From: Bacillota bacterium
GTDB taxonomy: Bacteria > Bacillota > Sulfobacillia > Sulfobacillales > Sulfobacillaceae
Direction of reading: 5' to 3'
DNA: 64,000 bases
Assembly: GCA_021799435.1 (NCBI GenBank)
Contig: JAJZAN010000002.1
Span: forward strand, 62,001 to 126,000
Part shown: piece by piece, positions 4,533 through 26,390 of the stretch
Numbering within the stretch: position 1 is the stretch's first letter
How the letters are laid out: each line of letters starts with the position of its first letter
Made by a program: the position numbers and the translations under genes
The notes under the pieces: generated by a model
Seen by the model: the letters and a program-made list of their open reading frames with translations, nothing else
What the model was told of the DNA's origin: nothing
Database searches by the model: none

Positions 4533-4560
4533 TTGACTTTTCAACGCACACCGCTACACT
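4533..4560 (+). promoter_or_regulatory. SigA-type promoter of the suf operon
   Basis: TTGACT (4533-4538), 16-bp spacer, TACACT (4555-4560), about 60 bp upstream of sufC. Confidence 0.7.
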
Positions 4561-4573
4561 AAACATAGCAATA

Positions 4574-4590
4574 CTGAGTAAAGTACTCAG
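4574..4590. promoter_or_regulatory. Perfect inverted repeat CTGAGTA-aag-TACTCAG, candidate Rrf2/IscR-type operator
   Basis: 7-bp perfect arms just downstream of the putative TSS of sufC; an IscR-like gene lies in the same window. Confidence 0.55.
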
Positions 4591-4618
4591 AAATGGTTCG
4601 GTCCTGAGGAGGCTCGAC

Positions 4619-5392
4619 ATGTCTACACCAGTCTTGGAAATTTCCGACCTGCATATGCGGATCGAAGAGAAACAAATTCTCAAGGGGCTTACGCTCACCA
4701 TCAAGGGCGGCGAGATCCATGCCGTAATGGGTCCCAACGGCACAGGCAAGACTTCGCTGGCCCAATGCTTGATGGGTCATCCCCGATACCAAATCACGGG
4801 CGGAAGTGTCCGACTTGACGGCGAGGACATGCTCACCATGAAGCCCGACGAGAGAGCACGGCATGGGCTGTTCTTGGCCATGCAGTACCCCAGTGAAATT
4901 TCGGGCGTCACGACCGCCAATTTTCTGCGGGCCGCCATCAACGCCCGCCGTGAAGATGGGACCAGCATCTCTTTGAAAGCATTTCGGGATCAACTGGACG
5001 AGGTCATGGGCTTTTTGGACATGGACCCCAAGTTTGCGAACCGTTACTTGAACGAAGGATTTTCCGGCGGAGAGAAGAAGCGCAACGAGATTCTTCAGAT
5101 GCTGATGCTAAAGCCGCGCATTGCCATCTTAGACGAGATCGATTCCGGCCTCGACATTGACGCCATCAAAGTGGTCTCCAAGGGAGTCAACTCCTTGAAA
5201 GGACCAGACTTTGGCTCTCTCATCATCACTCACTACCAACGGATTTTGGACTACGTCCATCCCGACTTCGTGCACATCATGGTAGACGGGACAATCGTCA
5301 AGTCGGGCGGGCCAGAACTCGCCTTGGAATTGGACAAAAAAGGGTACGAATGGGTCCGAACGGAACTGGCTCAGTCGACACATCAAGCGTAG
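4619..5392 (+). CDS. sufC: Fe-S cluster assembly ATPase SufC
   Basis: MSTPVLEISDLHMRIEEKQILKGL, GPNGTGKTSLAQ, FSGGEKKRNEILQM, LDEIDSGLDIDA; GAGGAGG RBS. Confidence 0.97.
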   Translation: MSTPVLEISDLHMRIEEKQILKGLTLTIKGGEIHAVMGPNGTGKTSLAQCLMGHPRYQITGGSVRLDGEDMLTMKPDERARHGLFLAMQYPSEISGVTTANFLRAAINARREDGTSISLKAFRDQLDEVMGFLDMDPKFANRYLNEGFSGGEKKRNEILQMLMLKPRIAILDEIDSGLDIDAIKVVSKGVNSLKGPDFGSLIITHYQRILDYVHPDFVHIMVDGTIVKSGGPELALELDKKGYEWVRTELAQSTHQA

Positions 5393-5401
5393 GAGGATCC
5401 C

Positions 5402-6679
5402 ATGTCTGAGATGATTTTAGACCAAGCCTCCGAAGCGGACTTGAAGTCCCTGGTCGAGGAGCGCTTCGGGCACGAACCTCAATGGAGTCTCGCGCGGCGC
5501 CAGAGCGCTGCTGAAGCTGTATTGAATCTTGATTGGCCCCGGCTTGAGCGCACTCCGCTCAAAAAGCGCAAGCTGGATCAACTGCACCTATTTAAAGCCC
5601 CACCCACCCCTTCCCGTACCGCCGCAGCGGCACCCGAAGGCTGGGCCGAAATTTGGCTCGACAACAATCAGGTGGTGGCGGTCTCAATGCCCGAGGCGCT
5701 GTCCCTCCAAGGCGTGCGCCTCGAGTCTCTGACCGCAGCACTAGATGACCCGGACGTGGAAAAACACCTGGGGCGCTTATTGGGCCAAGATGCAGACAAA
5801 ATCGCCGCCCTCAGCGGCGCGTTGTGGCAGGGCGGCGTTTTTTTGCGGGTTCCGGCGCGGATTCGCGAGGTGGTTCGGGTATCCATTCGCAGCCACGCCA
5901 CGGCCGAGGCGGGCGCCCTGTTTGCCAAAAACCTCATCATCTGCGGCGCGGAAAGTCATGTCACGGTGACTCAGCGCCTCGCCACCGATGAGGGCGTCTC
6001 AAAGACCCTGTTATCGGAAAACACCGAGATTATTGTGGAAGACGGCGGCCGCGTGGACTTTGGCGCCATCCAACAGTGCGCACCCACAGTCGAAGGATTT
6101 ATCCATCGTGCTGGGGCTCTCGGACACGACGCCGTCCTCAACTGGAGCATCGGCGAATTCGGCGCTGGGCTGGTCGTGTCAGACCACGTATCCCACTTGG
6201 ACCAGCCCGGTGCGCAGACCTCCAGCACCACGGTGTTCTTTGGTGCGGGAACTCAGCATCAAGACTACTCCGCCAAAAGCTACCACCACGCTCCCCACAC
6301 GACCAGCAACATGGTGGCGCGGGGCGTCATGAAGAACAAGGCGCGAAGCGTGTTCACCGGACTGACCCAAATTGAGGCAGGTGCCAAAGGATCGGACGGG
6401 CGGCAAAAAGAACAAACCCTGATGCTCTCAGATGACGCCCGCGCTGACGCCATTCCCTCCCTGATTATCGACGAGCGCGATGTGTACGCCGCCCACGCGG
6501 CCAGCGCAGGACCGGTCGATCGCGCGGCCGTGTTCTACCTCACCAGCCGCGGCTTGTCTGAACCGGAGGCCGAACGCATAATTGTGCACGGATTTTTGGC
6601 CCCAGTCATTGACGCCATCGCCCTCCCCGAGCTTCGGGATGAGGTGTGGGACGCTGTAGAGAGGAAGATTCGTGCATGA
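5402..6679 (+). CDS. sufD: Fe-S cluster assembly protein SufD
   Basis: SufBD core (YHHAPHTTSNMVARGVMKNKARSVFTGL), located between sufC and sufS. Confidence 0.95.
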   Translation: MSEMILDQASEADLKSLVEERFGHEPQWSLARRQSAAEAVLNLDWPRLERTPLKKRKLDQLHLFKAPPTPSRTAAAAPEGWAEIWLDNNQVVAVSMPEALSLQGVRLESLTAALDDPDVEKHLGRLLGQDADKIAALSGALWQGGVFLRVPARIREVVRVSIRSHATAEAGALFAKNLIICGAESHVTVTQRLATDEGVSKTLLSENTEIIVEDGGRVDFGAIQQCAPTVEGFIHRAGALGHDAVLNWSIGEFGAGLVVSDHVSHLDQPGAQTSSTTVFFGAGTQHQDYSAKSYHHAPHTTSNMVARGVMKNKARSVFTGLTQIEAGAKGSDGRQKEQTLMLSDDARADAIPSLIIDERDVYAAHAASAGPVDRAAVFYLTSRGLSEPEAERIIVHGFLAPVIDAIALPELRDEVWDAVERKIRA

Positions 6680-7899
6680 TTAATCCCTTGGTGGACGCAG
6701 CGCATGATTTTCCCATTCTAAACCGTTCGATGCATGGTCATCGCCTGGTTTGGCTCGACTCAGCGGCCACCTCTCAAAAGCCGGAACCGGTCGTCGAGGC
6801 CATGGACCGTTTCTATCACGAGTCCAACGCCAACGTGTTGCGCTCGGTCCACACGCTGGCGGACGAGGCCACCACGGCATTCCATGGGGCCCGCTTCAAG
6901 GCCGCGCGGTTCATTCAGGCCGATAGGCCCGAAGAAGTGATATTCACCCGTGGGACTACCGAGAGCCTCAACATGGTCGCACGGGGCTACGGCGACCTGG
7001 TCGTGAAGACTGATGACGAGATTGTGTTATCGCCCATGGAGCACCACTCCAACCTGATCCCTTGGCAGCAGTTGGCCAAGCGCACGGGCGCCAAGCTGCG
7101 CTATGTGGAACTGAGCCCCGACGGCGTCATCCGCCCCGAGGCCCTCGCAGCGGTCATAGGACCGCGCACCCGCATTGTCGCGCTTTCCAGGATCTCCAAC
7201 GTGCTGGGCACCATCAACCCCATCGCCGAAGCCGCCGAGATGGTGCATAAACACGGCGGCATCATGGTTGTCGACGGGGCCCAGTCGGTACCGCATGAAA
7301 GCACCGACGTCCATCAACTGGGCGCGGATTTTCTGGCATTCTCGGGCCACAAGATGTGCGGCCCCACCGGGATCGGCGTGCTGTACGGGCGGATGGACCT
7401 GTTGGAGACCATGGAACCGGTCATGTACGGAGGCGAAATGATTAGCTACGTTGATCAGGAGACAGCCACATGGGCGGAGGTTCCCCAAAAGTTCGAAGGG
7501 GGCACACCCAATATCGCCGGTGCGATTGGTCTCGGTGCCGCCATCGATTACCTGGCGGGCGTCGGCATGGACGCCATTCACGAGCATAGCCGGGCCCTTG
7601 GCGAACTCGCCTTTGACACGTTGAAGAGTCTGGAGGGCGTATCCGTCTATGGTCCCGCCCGCCCCCATGCGGCTGCCGTCGCGTTTAACATCGATGGGGT
7701 ACACCCCCACGACGTTGCACAGGTGTTCGATTCGTTGGGCGTTGCGATTCGGGCCGGACATCACTGCGCGCAGCCGCTGATGCATTGGCTGGGAGTTGGA
7801 TCCACTGCCCGAGCCAGCTTCTATCTCTACAACAGCCAGGACGACGTGGCCGTATTGAAGCAAGCCATTCTGGAGACAAAGAGGTTTTTTCAACGATGA
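6676..7899 (+). CDS. sufS: Cysteine desulfurase SufS
   Basis: LDSAATSQKP, VDGAQSVPHESTDV, FSGHKMCGPTGIGVLYG, RAGHHCAQPLM; ATGA overlap with sufD. Confidence 0.97.
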   Translation: MINPLVDAAHDFPILNRSMHGHRLVWLDSAATSQKPEPVVEAMDRFYHESNANVLRSVHTLADEATTAFHGARFKAARFIQADRPEEVIFTRGTTESLNMVARGYGDLVVKTDDEIVLSPMEHHSNLIPWQQLAKRTGAKLRYVELSPDGVIRPEALAAVIGPRTRIVALSRISNVLGTINPIAEAAEMVHKHGGIMVVDGAQSVPHESTDVHQLGADFLAFSGHKMCGPTGIGVLYGRMDLLETMEPVMYGGEMISYVDQETATWAEVPQKFEGGTPNIAGAIGLGAAIDYLAGVGMDAIHEHSRALGELAFDTLKSLEGVSVYGPARPHAAAVAFNIDGVHPHDVAQVFDSLGVAIRAGHHCAQPLMHWLGVGSTARASFYLYNSQDDVAVLKQAILETKRFFQR

Positions 7900-8327
7900 A
7901 TCTAGATGAGCTCTATCGCGAAACAATATTGGATCACAACCAGACACCCCGTAACCGCCGTGAACTCGAAAATCCGACCAAAACAGTCGGATTGCTGAAT
8001 CCCACGTGTGGCGATCAGATTAAACTGGATCTACAATTAGATCATGGCAAAGTGACGGATGTGGGTTTCACCGGCGACGGCTGCTCCATCAGCATGGCAT
8101 CAGCATCCATGATGACGGAAGCCATTAAGGGCAAGTCGATAGAGGAAGCGCTGGATTTGGCCCGTCACTTCAAAGCTTTTCTCACCGGAACGCCAAGTCC
8201 CGTTGAGCTGGGCGATTTGGAAGCACTGCAAGGTGTTTCCCAATTTCCGAGCCGAGTCAAATGTGCCACGCTGGCACACAATGCTTTAGAGAAAGCATTG
8301 ATGGAATCCGAGCCGACCGACAGATAA
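7896..8327 (+). CDS. sufU: Fe-S assembly scaffold/sulfurtransferase SufU
   Basis: LYRETILDHNQTPRN, NPTCGD, GDGCSISMASASMM, RVKCATL; ATGA overlap with sufS. Confidence 0.95.
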   Translation: MNLDELYRETILDHNQTPRNRRELENPTKTVGLLNPTCGDQIKLDLQLDHGKVTDVGFTGDGCSISMASASMMTEAIKGKSIEEALDLARHFKAFLTGTPSPVELGDLEALQGVSQFPSRVKCATLAHNALEKALMESEPTDR

Positions 8328-8339
8328 GGAGGGAGCACT

Positions 8340-9737
8340 ATGGCATCCAAACCAATCGTGAGCGATGAGTATCAATATGGATTTAATGATGGCGATGTCG
8401 GCGTTCTCAAGTTTAACCGGGGGCTGCGGCGAGAAACAGTGGAAGAGATTTCCCGCATTAAGAAAGAGCCCAAGTGGATGCTCGACTTTCGCCTGCACTC
8501 GCTCGATGTATTCATGAAGAAACCCATGCCCAATTGGGGCGGGAATTTGTCCACCCTGAACTTTAACGACATCGTGTACTACGTCAAGCCGTCTGAAAAC
8601 CAGGGTCGCACATGGGACGACGTGCCGCAGGCGATTAAGGATACCTTCGAGCGTCTGGGGATCCCCGAGGCCGAGCGCAAGTTCCTGGCAGGCGTGTCCG
8701 CCCAGTATGAGTCTGAAGTGGTATACCACAGCATTCGGGACGACCTCAAAGAAAAAGGCATTATTTTTACCGACACCGATTCGGCACTGCGTGAATACCC
8801 AGAACTATTCCGGGAATACTTTGGCACCGTCATTCCACCGGAAGACAACAAGTTTGCGGCGCTGAACTCTGCCGTGTGGTCGGGCGGTTCGTTCGTCTAT
8901 ATCCCCAAGGGTATCAAGGCGGACATCCCGCTGCAAGCGTACTTTCGCATCAATTCAGAGAACATGGGCCAATTTGAGCGGACTTTGATTATTGCCGAAG
9001 ACGATTCCTTCGGCCACTACGTGGAAGGCTGCACCGCTCCCATTTACTCCAGCGAGTCGCTGCACTCAGCGGTAGTGGAGATTATCGTGAAAGACCGGGC
9101 GCGGATGCGCTATACCACCGTGCAGAACTGGGCGCCCAATGTCTACAACTTGGTGACCAAGCGGGCCGTAGCCTATCAAGATGCCACCATGGAATGGGTC
9201 GACGGCAACATTGGCTCCAAACTGACCATGAAGTACCCCTCGGTGTACATGGTTGGGGAAGGCGCCAAGGGGATGGTGTTGTCTATCGCCGTGGCCGGCA
9301 AGGGCCAGCACCAAGACACCGGATCCAAGATGATTCACGCGGCACCCCACACCACCTCGACCATCGTGTCGAAGTCCATCAGCCAGCACGGCGGCAAGAC
9401 CACGTATCGCGGTCTCGTGCACTTCGCGCCGGATGCGGCGGAATCCAAGTCTAACGTCAAGTGCGACACGCTCATCATGGATGACGAGTCGACCTCCGAC
9501 ACCATCCCCTACAGCGAAGTGTCCAATGCCAACGTAGAGATGGAGCACGAAGCCACAGTGACCAAGGTCAGTGAAGAAGCGTTGTTCTATCTCACGAGTC
9601 GCGGACTGTCGGAGGAAGAGGCCACACGCATGATTGTCATGGGCTTCATTGAGCCCTTTACACGGGAGTTGCCCATGGAATTTGCCGTGGAGATGAACCG
9701 CTTGATCAAGTTTGAGATGGAAGGGGCTATCGGATAG
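8340..9737 (+). CDS. sufB: Fe-S cluster assembly protein SufB
   Basis: SufB signatures ([47 protein letters not shown]). Confidence 0.97.
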
Positions 9738-10048
9738 TGGCGTTCACCCGAGTAATTGACGCGGAAGACGTCCAGGAAGGCCACCCCGTTCTGGTGGTAG
9801 TCGGCGACATCGAGGTGGCCTTATTCCGTGTCGGAAACGAATACTTCGCCTTGGACGACCTGTGCAGCCACGCCGAAGCATCACTTTCCGAAGGCGACCA
9901 ATATGGCCACATTATCGAATGCCCTCGTCATGGCGGACGCTTCGATATCCGCACCGGCAAGGCCAAACACTTCCCAGCATTTTCCCCAGTATCCGCCTTC
10001 CCCGTCAAGGTGGAGGACGGCGGCTTGTTTGTCGACGTAGCGGGTTAA
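9737..10048 (+). CDS. Rieske [2Fe-2S] ferredoxin-like protein
   Basis: DDLCSHAEASLSEG...ECPRHGGRFD (CxH...CxxH); last gene of the suf operon. Confidence 0.88.
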   Translation: MAFTRVIDAEDVQEGHPVLVVVGDIEVALFRVGNEYFALDDLCSHAEASLSEGDQYGHIIECPRHGGRFDIRTGKAKHFPAFSPVSAFPVKVEDGGLFVDVAG

Positions 10049-24147: not shown

Positions 24148-24633
24148 CTATCCTCCTTTGCTCATGTAAGACTCGGGTTCACCTGGCACGGAAAGCTTGG
24201 TGCGCTGAAAAGCCTTTTGCTCCATGATTAAGCGATCCATGGTGATTTGACTCATGGCATCATCTACCGCTTCCTGCACCCGCGTCCAGACGTCGGGACC
24301 CACGCACCAGTCAATTTCCGCACATCCCGTGCCGTCATCCGTGGAACATTCCGCCACGACGATGGGCCCTTCCACAGCCGCCACCACATCCCGAACCGAG
24401 ACGCTCTCAGGGAAACTGGCCAGACGATACCCGCCTTGGGCCCCGCGCATGCCTACCACCAAGCCAGCCCGTTTCAAGAGAGGCATCAGTTGCTCTAAAT
24501 ACTGTTCAGGAATGTTTTGTGCATGCGCAATGCTTGACACAGTCAACGGCCCCCGCCCGGCATGAAGGGCCAGTTCGTAGACCGCTTTGACCGCGTACCG
24601 TCCTTTGCTGGAGACCTTGAACATACGCGACAC
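24148..24633 (-). CDS. Rrf2/IscR-type transcriptional regulator with three conserved Cys
   Basis: KVSSKGRYAVKAVYELALHAG, IPEQYLEQLMPLLKRAGLV, GAQGGYRLA, C-x7-C-x5-C (ECSTDDGTGCAEIDWC). Confidence 0.9.
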   Translation of the reverse strand: MSRMFKVSSKGRYAVKAVYELALHAGRGPLTVSSIAHAQNIPEQYLEQLMPLLKRAGLVVGMRGAQGGYRLASFPESVSVRDVVAAVEGPIVVAECSTDDGTGCAEIDWCVGPDVWTRVQEAVDDAMSQITMDRLIMEQKAFQRTKLSVPGEPESYMSKGG

Positions 24634-24695
24634 TCCCAGAATTCTTTGTCTTTAGGTTAGCACCGGACGCCTCGAGGGTCAACTGAGCCCCACGG

Positions 24696-26390
24696 TCAAT
24701 AGGTCCGCGCCTTGGGTTCGTAGTGAGTAATGACGACGGGCTCCCGAGCCATTTTCAGCTCGCCGTCAGGCGTCCTGGAAAACAGAAAATGGCAGAGGAA
24801 CTCGGCGTCCCGCCGGGTGGGAAAATCCACCCGGGCGTGAGCGCCCCGGCTCTCTTCGCGCAAAAGCGCTCCCTCCACCACCGTGTCGGCCAAGTCCAGC
24901 AGAAACCCGGTTTCCAGAAAGGCCAGCAAGTCATAGTTGAAAAGGCTGCCCCGATCCATGAGCGACGCGCCGTCATAGCGCTGGTGAAGATCCTTTAAGC
25001 GACTTTGCGCGTCTTCCAGTCGCGATCCGGTTCGAAAGGTGCCTACCATCCGTGTCATGGTTTCCCGAAGTTCACGGCGGATGGTCCCATAATGCTCTCC
25101 TCCCGTGCGTGCGAAAATGTTGCCCAGGGTCTCAGCCGCCCCCCTAAGTCGCCTCGTGGAGACGTGTGCTCGACCATTTTGCGCCACGTGACGCGACGCC
25201 TCCACGCCCGCCAGCCGGCCGAATACCAGCGTGTCTAATAGGGAATTCGCCCCCAGTCGATTGGCTCCGTGGACACTCACCGCGGCACATTCCCCAGCGG
25301 CATAGAATCCCGGAAGAATGGTCCTTCCGTACTTGTCGGTCGCTATCCCGCCCATCATGTAGTGCTGCCCCGGTTGTACCGGCACGGGATTGTGCACCGG
25401 ATTGACGCCCTTATAGGTAATGGCGAAGTCATAGATCTCGGAAAGCCGTTGACGGATTAAGGTCTCCCCCAAATGCCGCAGATCGAGATGGACATAGCCC
25501 CCATCAAACCCCCGTCCCTCATCGATTTCTGTTTCAATAGCCCGCGACACGATGTCCCGCGGCGCCACTTCCATCAACTTGGGTGCATATCGCTCCATAA
25601 ACCGTTGCCCATCTCGGTTGACCAGGTAGGCGCCCTCGCCGCGAGCCCCCTCGGTAATCAGGACATTCATGCCCGGCAAGGTGGTGGGATGGAACTGAAC
25701 AAACTCCATATCCTTCAACGGCACGCCCGCCCTCAGCGCAATGGCCATCCCATCGCCGGTATTGATATAGGGATTGGTCGTGCGCGCATACATCATGCCA
25801 GCCCCACCGGTTCCGAAAATGACAGCCCCCGCATCAATGCCGACGATGTTCCCGGTGGCAATATCGAGGGCAATGACACCGGCTGCTCGCCCGTCCTCGA
25901 CCGCCAATTCCAACACAAAAAGCTCCTGGTGCACTTCGACTTGGTGCTTAATCGACTGCTCGAAAAGACTTTGATACAAGGCGCGCCCGGTCTTATCGGC
26001 CGCGTAGCAAGCCCGCGGATACCCCTGGCCGCCGAAGGAGCGCTGAGCAATACGTCCGTCCGGTCGACGGGAAAACAATGTGCCCCAATGCTCCATCTCA
26101 TACACCACGCGAGGGGCATCCTCGCACATCAATTCAGCGGCATCCTGGTCTGCCAAGTAGTCGCTGCCTTTAATCGTGTCAAAGGCGTGATCCTGCCACC
26201 GGTCTTCGGGGTCCAGTGCTGCGTTGATGCCGCCCTGAGCGGCCACCGAATGCGAGCGCACCGGATACACTTTGGAGATGACAATGACATGGTAGGCGGG
26301 ATCCACCGCCAATGCTGCCCGTAAACCAGAAAGCCCCGCGCCCACCACAACCACATCACAGATCAAATTTTTTGACTCCACGGCCCTCAC
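24696..26390 (-). CDS. sdhA: Succinate dehydrogenase/fumarate reductase flavoprotein subunit (complex 1)
   Basis: [70 protein letters not shown] start overlapping sdhB stop. Confidence 0.95.

Follow-up and report, generated by a model that had tools for sequence, protein, structure and literature searches.

Among the closest known counterparts of the site reported here are the type 1 IscR boxes, for which the E. coli consensus reads ATASYYGACTRWWWYAGTCRRSTAT (PMC3899308) and whose promoters are all repressed by IscR (PMC8593673). The suf operon of E. coli has a type 2 site and is activated by apo-IscR (PMC12594620). In Myxococcus xanthus, the Rrf2 repressor RisR controls isc and suf via GAC-N7-GTC sites (PMC9973013), while in Cyanobacteria and Actinobacteria a suf-promoter palindrome, CAAC-N6-GTTG, is bound by the Fe-S repressor SufR. 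In most Gram-positives the control of suf is described as unknown, which gives a suf operator in this group its value. For the Sulfobacillales, an entire order of acidophiles, the present analysis supplies a predicted operator together with its consensus, a small regulon and a probable regulator.

In the 64-kb window (the whole stretch of DNA analysed here), a forward-strand (+) promoter consisting of the –35 hexamer TTGACT (4533–4538), a 16-bp spacer and the –10 hexamer TACACT (4555–4560) is followed 13 bp past the –10 by the palindrome CTGAGTA-AAG-TACTCAG (4574–4590, with arms at 4574–4580 and 4584–4590), all of which lie exactly where they had first been noted. Together with its flanks AATA (4570–4573) and AAAT (4591–4594), the palindrome forms a predicted type-1-like IscR box of 25 bp (AATACTGAGTAAAGTACTCAGAAAT; 4570–4594, + strand, dyad centre 4582), as judged from sequence, conservation and matrix matches. 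Transcription would start near 4567, placing the box at about +4 to +28 and the palindrome at about +8 to +24. Behind the promoter, the genes follow on the same strand in the order sufC (4619–5392, start ATG at 4619; TIGR01978, 353 bits), sufD (5402–6679; TIGR01981), the cysteine desulfurase gene sufS (6676–7899; TIGR01979), sufU (7896–8327; PF01592 NifU_N), sufB (8340–9737; TIGR01980, 732 bits) and, as last gene of the apparent operon, a Rieske-type ferredoxin gene (9737–10048). All four TIGR matches are above their cut-offs, and the best families for the ferredoxin are below theirs. As far as examined, suf is the sole Fe-S assembly system of the host, whose SufC has its closest named relatives in Sulfobacillus benefaciens and Bacillota MAGs.

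The exact 17-mer of the palindrome occurs only once in the 3.97-Mb host genome, and a genome pattern search allowing 3 mismatches was too noisy, with a control pattern matching more often. The first-pass annotation had set beforehand that a lack of conservation upstream of suf in relatives would speak against an operator; what we found was promoter and box at the equivalent place in all 39 sufC upstream regions scored in the order, across three families, while the surrounding intergenic sequence diverges. These scores are descriptive, as the weights included the 39 sites themselves and the scoring was preceded by alignment by eye and by a search with matrix R1 (a sequence-only model trained on 23 suf boxes only). 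By direct count the box lies 11–15 bp past the –10 hexamer in 37 of the 39 regions (a second TTGAC misled the script in the other two). The promoters of these relatives are of the form TTGAC-N17-TACACT-like, so that TTGAC and the 16-bp spacer are kept across the order and the –10 is TACACT or a close variant. The box reads AATACTGAGTANNNTACTCRGAAAT in the host family and AAACCCGACTAAAACGCTAGGGTAT or similar in family f2, and in the sister families it comes close to the canonical type 1 IscR sequence of E. coli. Among 76 Bacilli suf loci used as control, 75 lacked the box. The sole carrier, Vulcanibacillus modesticaldus, has two boxes of canonical appearance (TTGACTAATTTAGTCAGGATT) ahead of sufC (L053 5834–5858 and 5879–5903).

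The suf box shares with the E. coli type 1 box (iscR sites A and B) a 25-bp dyad of equal spacing and with an equal centre, half-sites of the form GA-S-T, flanks rich in A/T, a position over the promoter and Fe-S biogenesis targets, whereas the boxes of this family differ in a prevalent inner G/C exchange (GAGT...ACTC) and in the outer flank AATA/AAAT. When compared literally with the E. coli consensus, the host box is identical at 17 of 25 positions, a level that is not rare in the window and that counts against a type 1 reading; identity rises to 21/25 in order relatives and 22/25 in Vulcanibacillus. A scan of the window for the literal type 1 consensus with up to 3 mismatches gave no match. 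The core tested was YYGACTR-WWW-YAGTCRR, from which the boxes deviate mainly by GAGT in place of GACT, and literal consensus identity alone is not informative as a test of such a box. Since a GAGT/ACTC half is also present in known type 1 sites, namely site A of P. aeruginosa and site B of E. coli, the GAGT form falls within the type 1 range. Specifically, the P. aeruginosa iscR type 1 site A (AATCCTGAGTAATTT...) shares the half CTGAGTAA with the suf box, and site B shares TTACTCGGATAA (PMC3899308). In P. aeruginosa, however, two sites lie over the isc operon promoter, whereas in the host a single one lies over the suf promoter.

The likeness to type 1 boxes had earlier been called loose, and a second matrix, R2, built from 57 Bacillota sites only, indicated that it is closer than that. 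Over 14 kb around E. coli iscR, R2 yielded four matches, corresponding to both strands of two iscR promoter sites (ATACCCGACTAAATCAGTCAAGTAA and ATAGTTGACCAATTTACTCGGGAAT) located 84–133 bp upstream of iscR, with E values of 0.011–0.033 and the next match at E 4.1. Elsewhere in E. coli, R2 missed erpA and scored weakly near nfuA, which limits the match to the E. coli iscR sites and likewise counts against the type 1 reading. By sequence pattern, the same box thus extends from these Gram-positive bacteria to E. coli, but the wiring differs, as the host suf operon carries a type-1-like box and that of E. coli a type 2 site. The RisR sites are similar to the suf box in being dyads with N7 spacing and A/T-rich flanks; RisR itself, however, is assigned to a distinct Rrf2 subgroup, one whose cluster is [4Fe-4S]. 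The SufR operator differs from the host box in sequence and in the family of the protein that binds it.

As proposed in the first-pass annotation, further copies of the box were sought upstream of Fe-S genes, and they were found both in the host and in its relatives by running R1 on 61 genomes. The second-best match in the host genome (C25:45590–45614, or L225 3091–3115; E 0.058; AATACTGAGTAGTTCGGTCAGATTT) lies directly after the TATAAT of the promoter of an Fe-S carrier operon encoding a SufT-like protein, which exceeds the cut-off of PF01883 though not that of TIGR02945, and an Mrp/ApbC-type ATPase (PF10609). This sufT box overlaps its start more closely than the suf box does, and its placement recurs in 20 genomes, the host (G000) included (G000, G001, G002, G003, G005, G006, G007, G008, G009, G011, G013, G014, G017, G021, G022, G024, G025, G027, G031 and G033). 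In class relatives, R1 matches were located no more than about 50 bp upstream of a three-Cys Rrf2 gene (G043, G044, G053, G054 and G059) or 147 bp upstream of it (G056), as well as upstream of iscS (G060) and of a rhodanese gene (G048). None of the sufT, Rrf2, iscS and rhodanese sites had been part of the R1 training set. The box is therefore found on the Fe-S biogenesis promoters of suf, sufT-like/mrp, iscR and iscS. Weak genome matches within coding genes (e.g. L267, L270 and L272) were judged to be chance.

A three-Cys IscR-like regulator had been noted at 24148–24633, and such a gene is indeed present on the minus strand, although its upper coordinate is 24624, with 24633 corresponding to an upstream GTG. 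Its product, P0001 (24148–24624, 158 aa), is the proposed ligand of the box. P0001 has the Rrf2 winged-helix fold (PF02082, 125.7 bits vs a cut-off of 30), is 33% identical to E. coli IscR and contains the cluster-loop cysteines Cys93, Cys101 and Cys107 (C-X7-C-X5-C), which almost all orthologs in the order retain. The closest solved structure is that of Thermincola potens IscR (4CIC, E=4.6e-32), like P0001 a Gram-positive IscR-type protein but one of different lineage and operon layout; T. potens IscR reportedly regulates Fe-S biogenesis (Santos et al. 2014). Because P0001 scores below the cut-off of the NCBIfam IscR equivalog TIGR02010 (110.6 vs 207.55 bits), we call it IscR-like rather than IscR. 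Moreover, Pro110 stands at the place of His107, the fourth ligand in E. coli IscR, so that a cluster would have to be ligated differently. In class relatives, Arg or Lys-like residues were seen where E. coli IscR has its His ligand. Glu44 in the YLEQL recognition helix of P0001 matches Glu43, the residue that prevents apo-IscR from binding to type 1 sites, but this motif is common in Rrf2 proteins and thus weak evidence for IscR.

P0001 orthologs are present in the order and the class, and the Rrf2 proteins of the class relatives are homologous to P0001, with the YLEQL helix and three Cys. In most genomes where both genes share a contig, the P0001 ortholog is about 17–40 kb from sufC, making it a conserved neighbour outside the operon. 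At the host P0001 gene itself, a TTGACC promoter is present but no box could be recognised (24625–24700 and upstream of the order orthologs), and autoregulation of iscR, for which the box is present in class relatives, seems to have been lost in the order. The missing box, Pro110 and the TIGR02010 score all count against P0001 as the regulator.

Taken together, we consider it highly likely from the sequence data that the palindrome is the suf operator, a variant type 1 IscR box that would be bound by cluster-loaded P0001 and repress both suf and the SufT-like/Mrp operon. The IscR-like operator reading of the first-pass annotation has in this sense been supported, and strengthened by conservation, the regulon and the matches at E. 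coli iscR. It is thus very probable that suf in this Gram-positive group is governed by a circuit already known in E. coli. When cluster supply is sufficient, a dimer of P0001 loaded with an Fe-S cluster would bind the suf box, covering the start region just past the –10 hexamer and blocking initiation or promoter escape. Upon falling cluster supply (through iron limitation or oxidants), the cluster would be lost and P0001 would leave the site, and this release would derepress suf and the SufT-like/Mrp carrier operon. Repression by cluster-loaded P0001 is to be expected by analogy with type 1 promoters, all of which IscR represses. What we observed directly is the sequence, its conservation and position, the common regulon and the association with this Rrf2 lineage; from these we infer P0001 binding, the dependence on a cluster and its type, repression and the transcription start. 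With a predicted operator and a likely regulator named, a direct test is possible.

The dyad alone names no protein, and the palindrome might instead be the DNA operator of another regulator, such as another Rrf2 paralog, SufR, Fur/PerR or some other factor. The host indeed has more Rrf2 paralogs (on C49 and C169), and the absence of a box at its own iscR-like gene is in line with such a regulator. However, the C49 copy lacks the loop cysteines and the C169 copy has a different Cys pattern, while the 97% complete genome G008 carries boxes at both suf and sufT and yet has the P0001 ortholog as its only Rrf2 protein. Moreover, in class relatives it is the three-Cys Rrf2 gene that has the box in front of it, pointing to autoregulation, and a SufR search (TIGR02702) gave no match in the host and none over the cut-off in the genomes searched. 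From these comparisons, which covered Rrf2 paralogs and SufR, we regard another regulator as improbable.

Located at about +8 to +24, the palindrome could also form a 7-bp stem with a 3-nt loop and work in the mRNA as a 5′ hairpin, be it a stabiliser or a leader regulator. Taken as a unit, the dyad is preserved much better than slid controls, and its positions covary more than shuffled ones, although a DNA dyad predicts likewise. The half-sites nevertheless vary independently, with column pair 9/17 (the inner G/C) unpaired in 22 of 57 sites and column pair 7/19 in 20 of 57, a pattern that fits an operator in the DNA and not a hairpin in the RNA. The folding energy of the suf leader is at shuffle level (z 0.01), and Rfam gave no match. 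Furthermore, the sufT copy of the box breaks the stem, the flanks beyond the arms (AAT...AAAT) are conserved as well, and the E. coli iscR sites matched by the same matrix are DNA sites. We thus rejected the hairpin, to which we assign only a very slight probability, on the basis of the broken pairs, the fold energy and the Rfam result. That the palindrome is a functionless chance dyad in a conserved promoter has next to no probability: the window contains ten perfect 7-3-7 palindromes, so that bare palindromy is not beyond chance and the significance of the suf site stems from its conservation, which already refutes this reading with 39 of 39 promoters in three families carrying the box amid diverging intergenic sequence, and the matrix that finds it also picks up iscR promoters and one more Fe-S promoter.

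Nowhere in the window is the E. coli type 1 consensus matched better (19/25) than in the sufU codons NPTKTVGL (7970–7994, + strand; AAATCCGACCAAAACAGTCGGATTG), where R2, which was not trained on it, gave E=0.0036. This candidate internal type-1-like box recurs in G001, G002, G005, G006, G007 and G018, i.e. most of the genus plus G018, and several genomes of the host family are without it. In the host and six relatives, 0 of 2000 synonymous recodings reached its score, and the site ranks fourth among 132 windows in synonymous identity, with 0.83 compared to an average of 0.53. As the box drew attention only once the search had been run, and as the genomes are relatives of one another, this evidence is suggestive only. 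It might hint that the first sufU codons hold another type 1 box inside the operon, kept by synonymous codon choice, and that the repressor acts not only at the promoter but also 3.4 kb farther downstream, as a roadblock or a partner in looping, so as to tune sufU-sufB apart from sufCDS, a possibility that we hold to be rather doubtful.

Another conserved dyad, GACTAAATTAGTA, was observed at about L225 3158–3173 and beyond, on the stretch that separates the sufT-like promoter from a divergent gene encoding 132 aa with no Pfam or NCBIfam match, and is perhaps a second operator serving this divergent gene.
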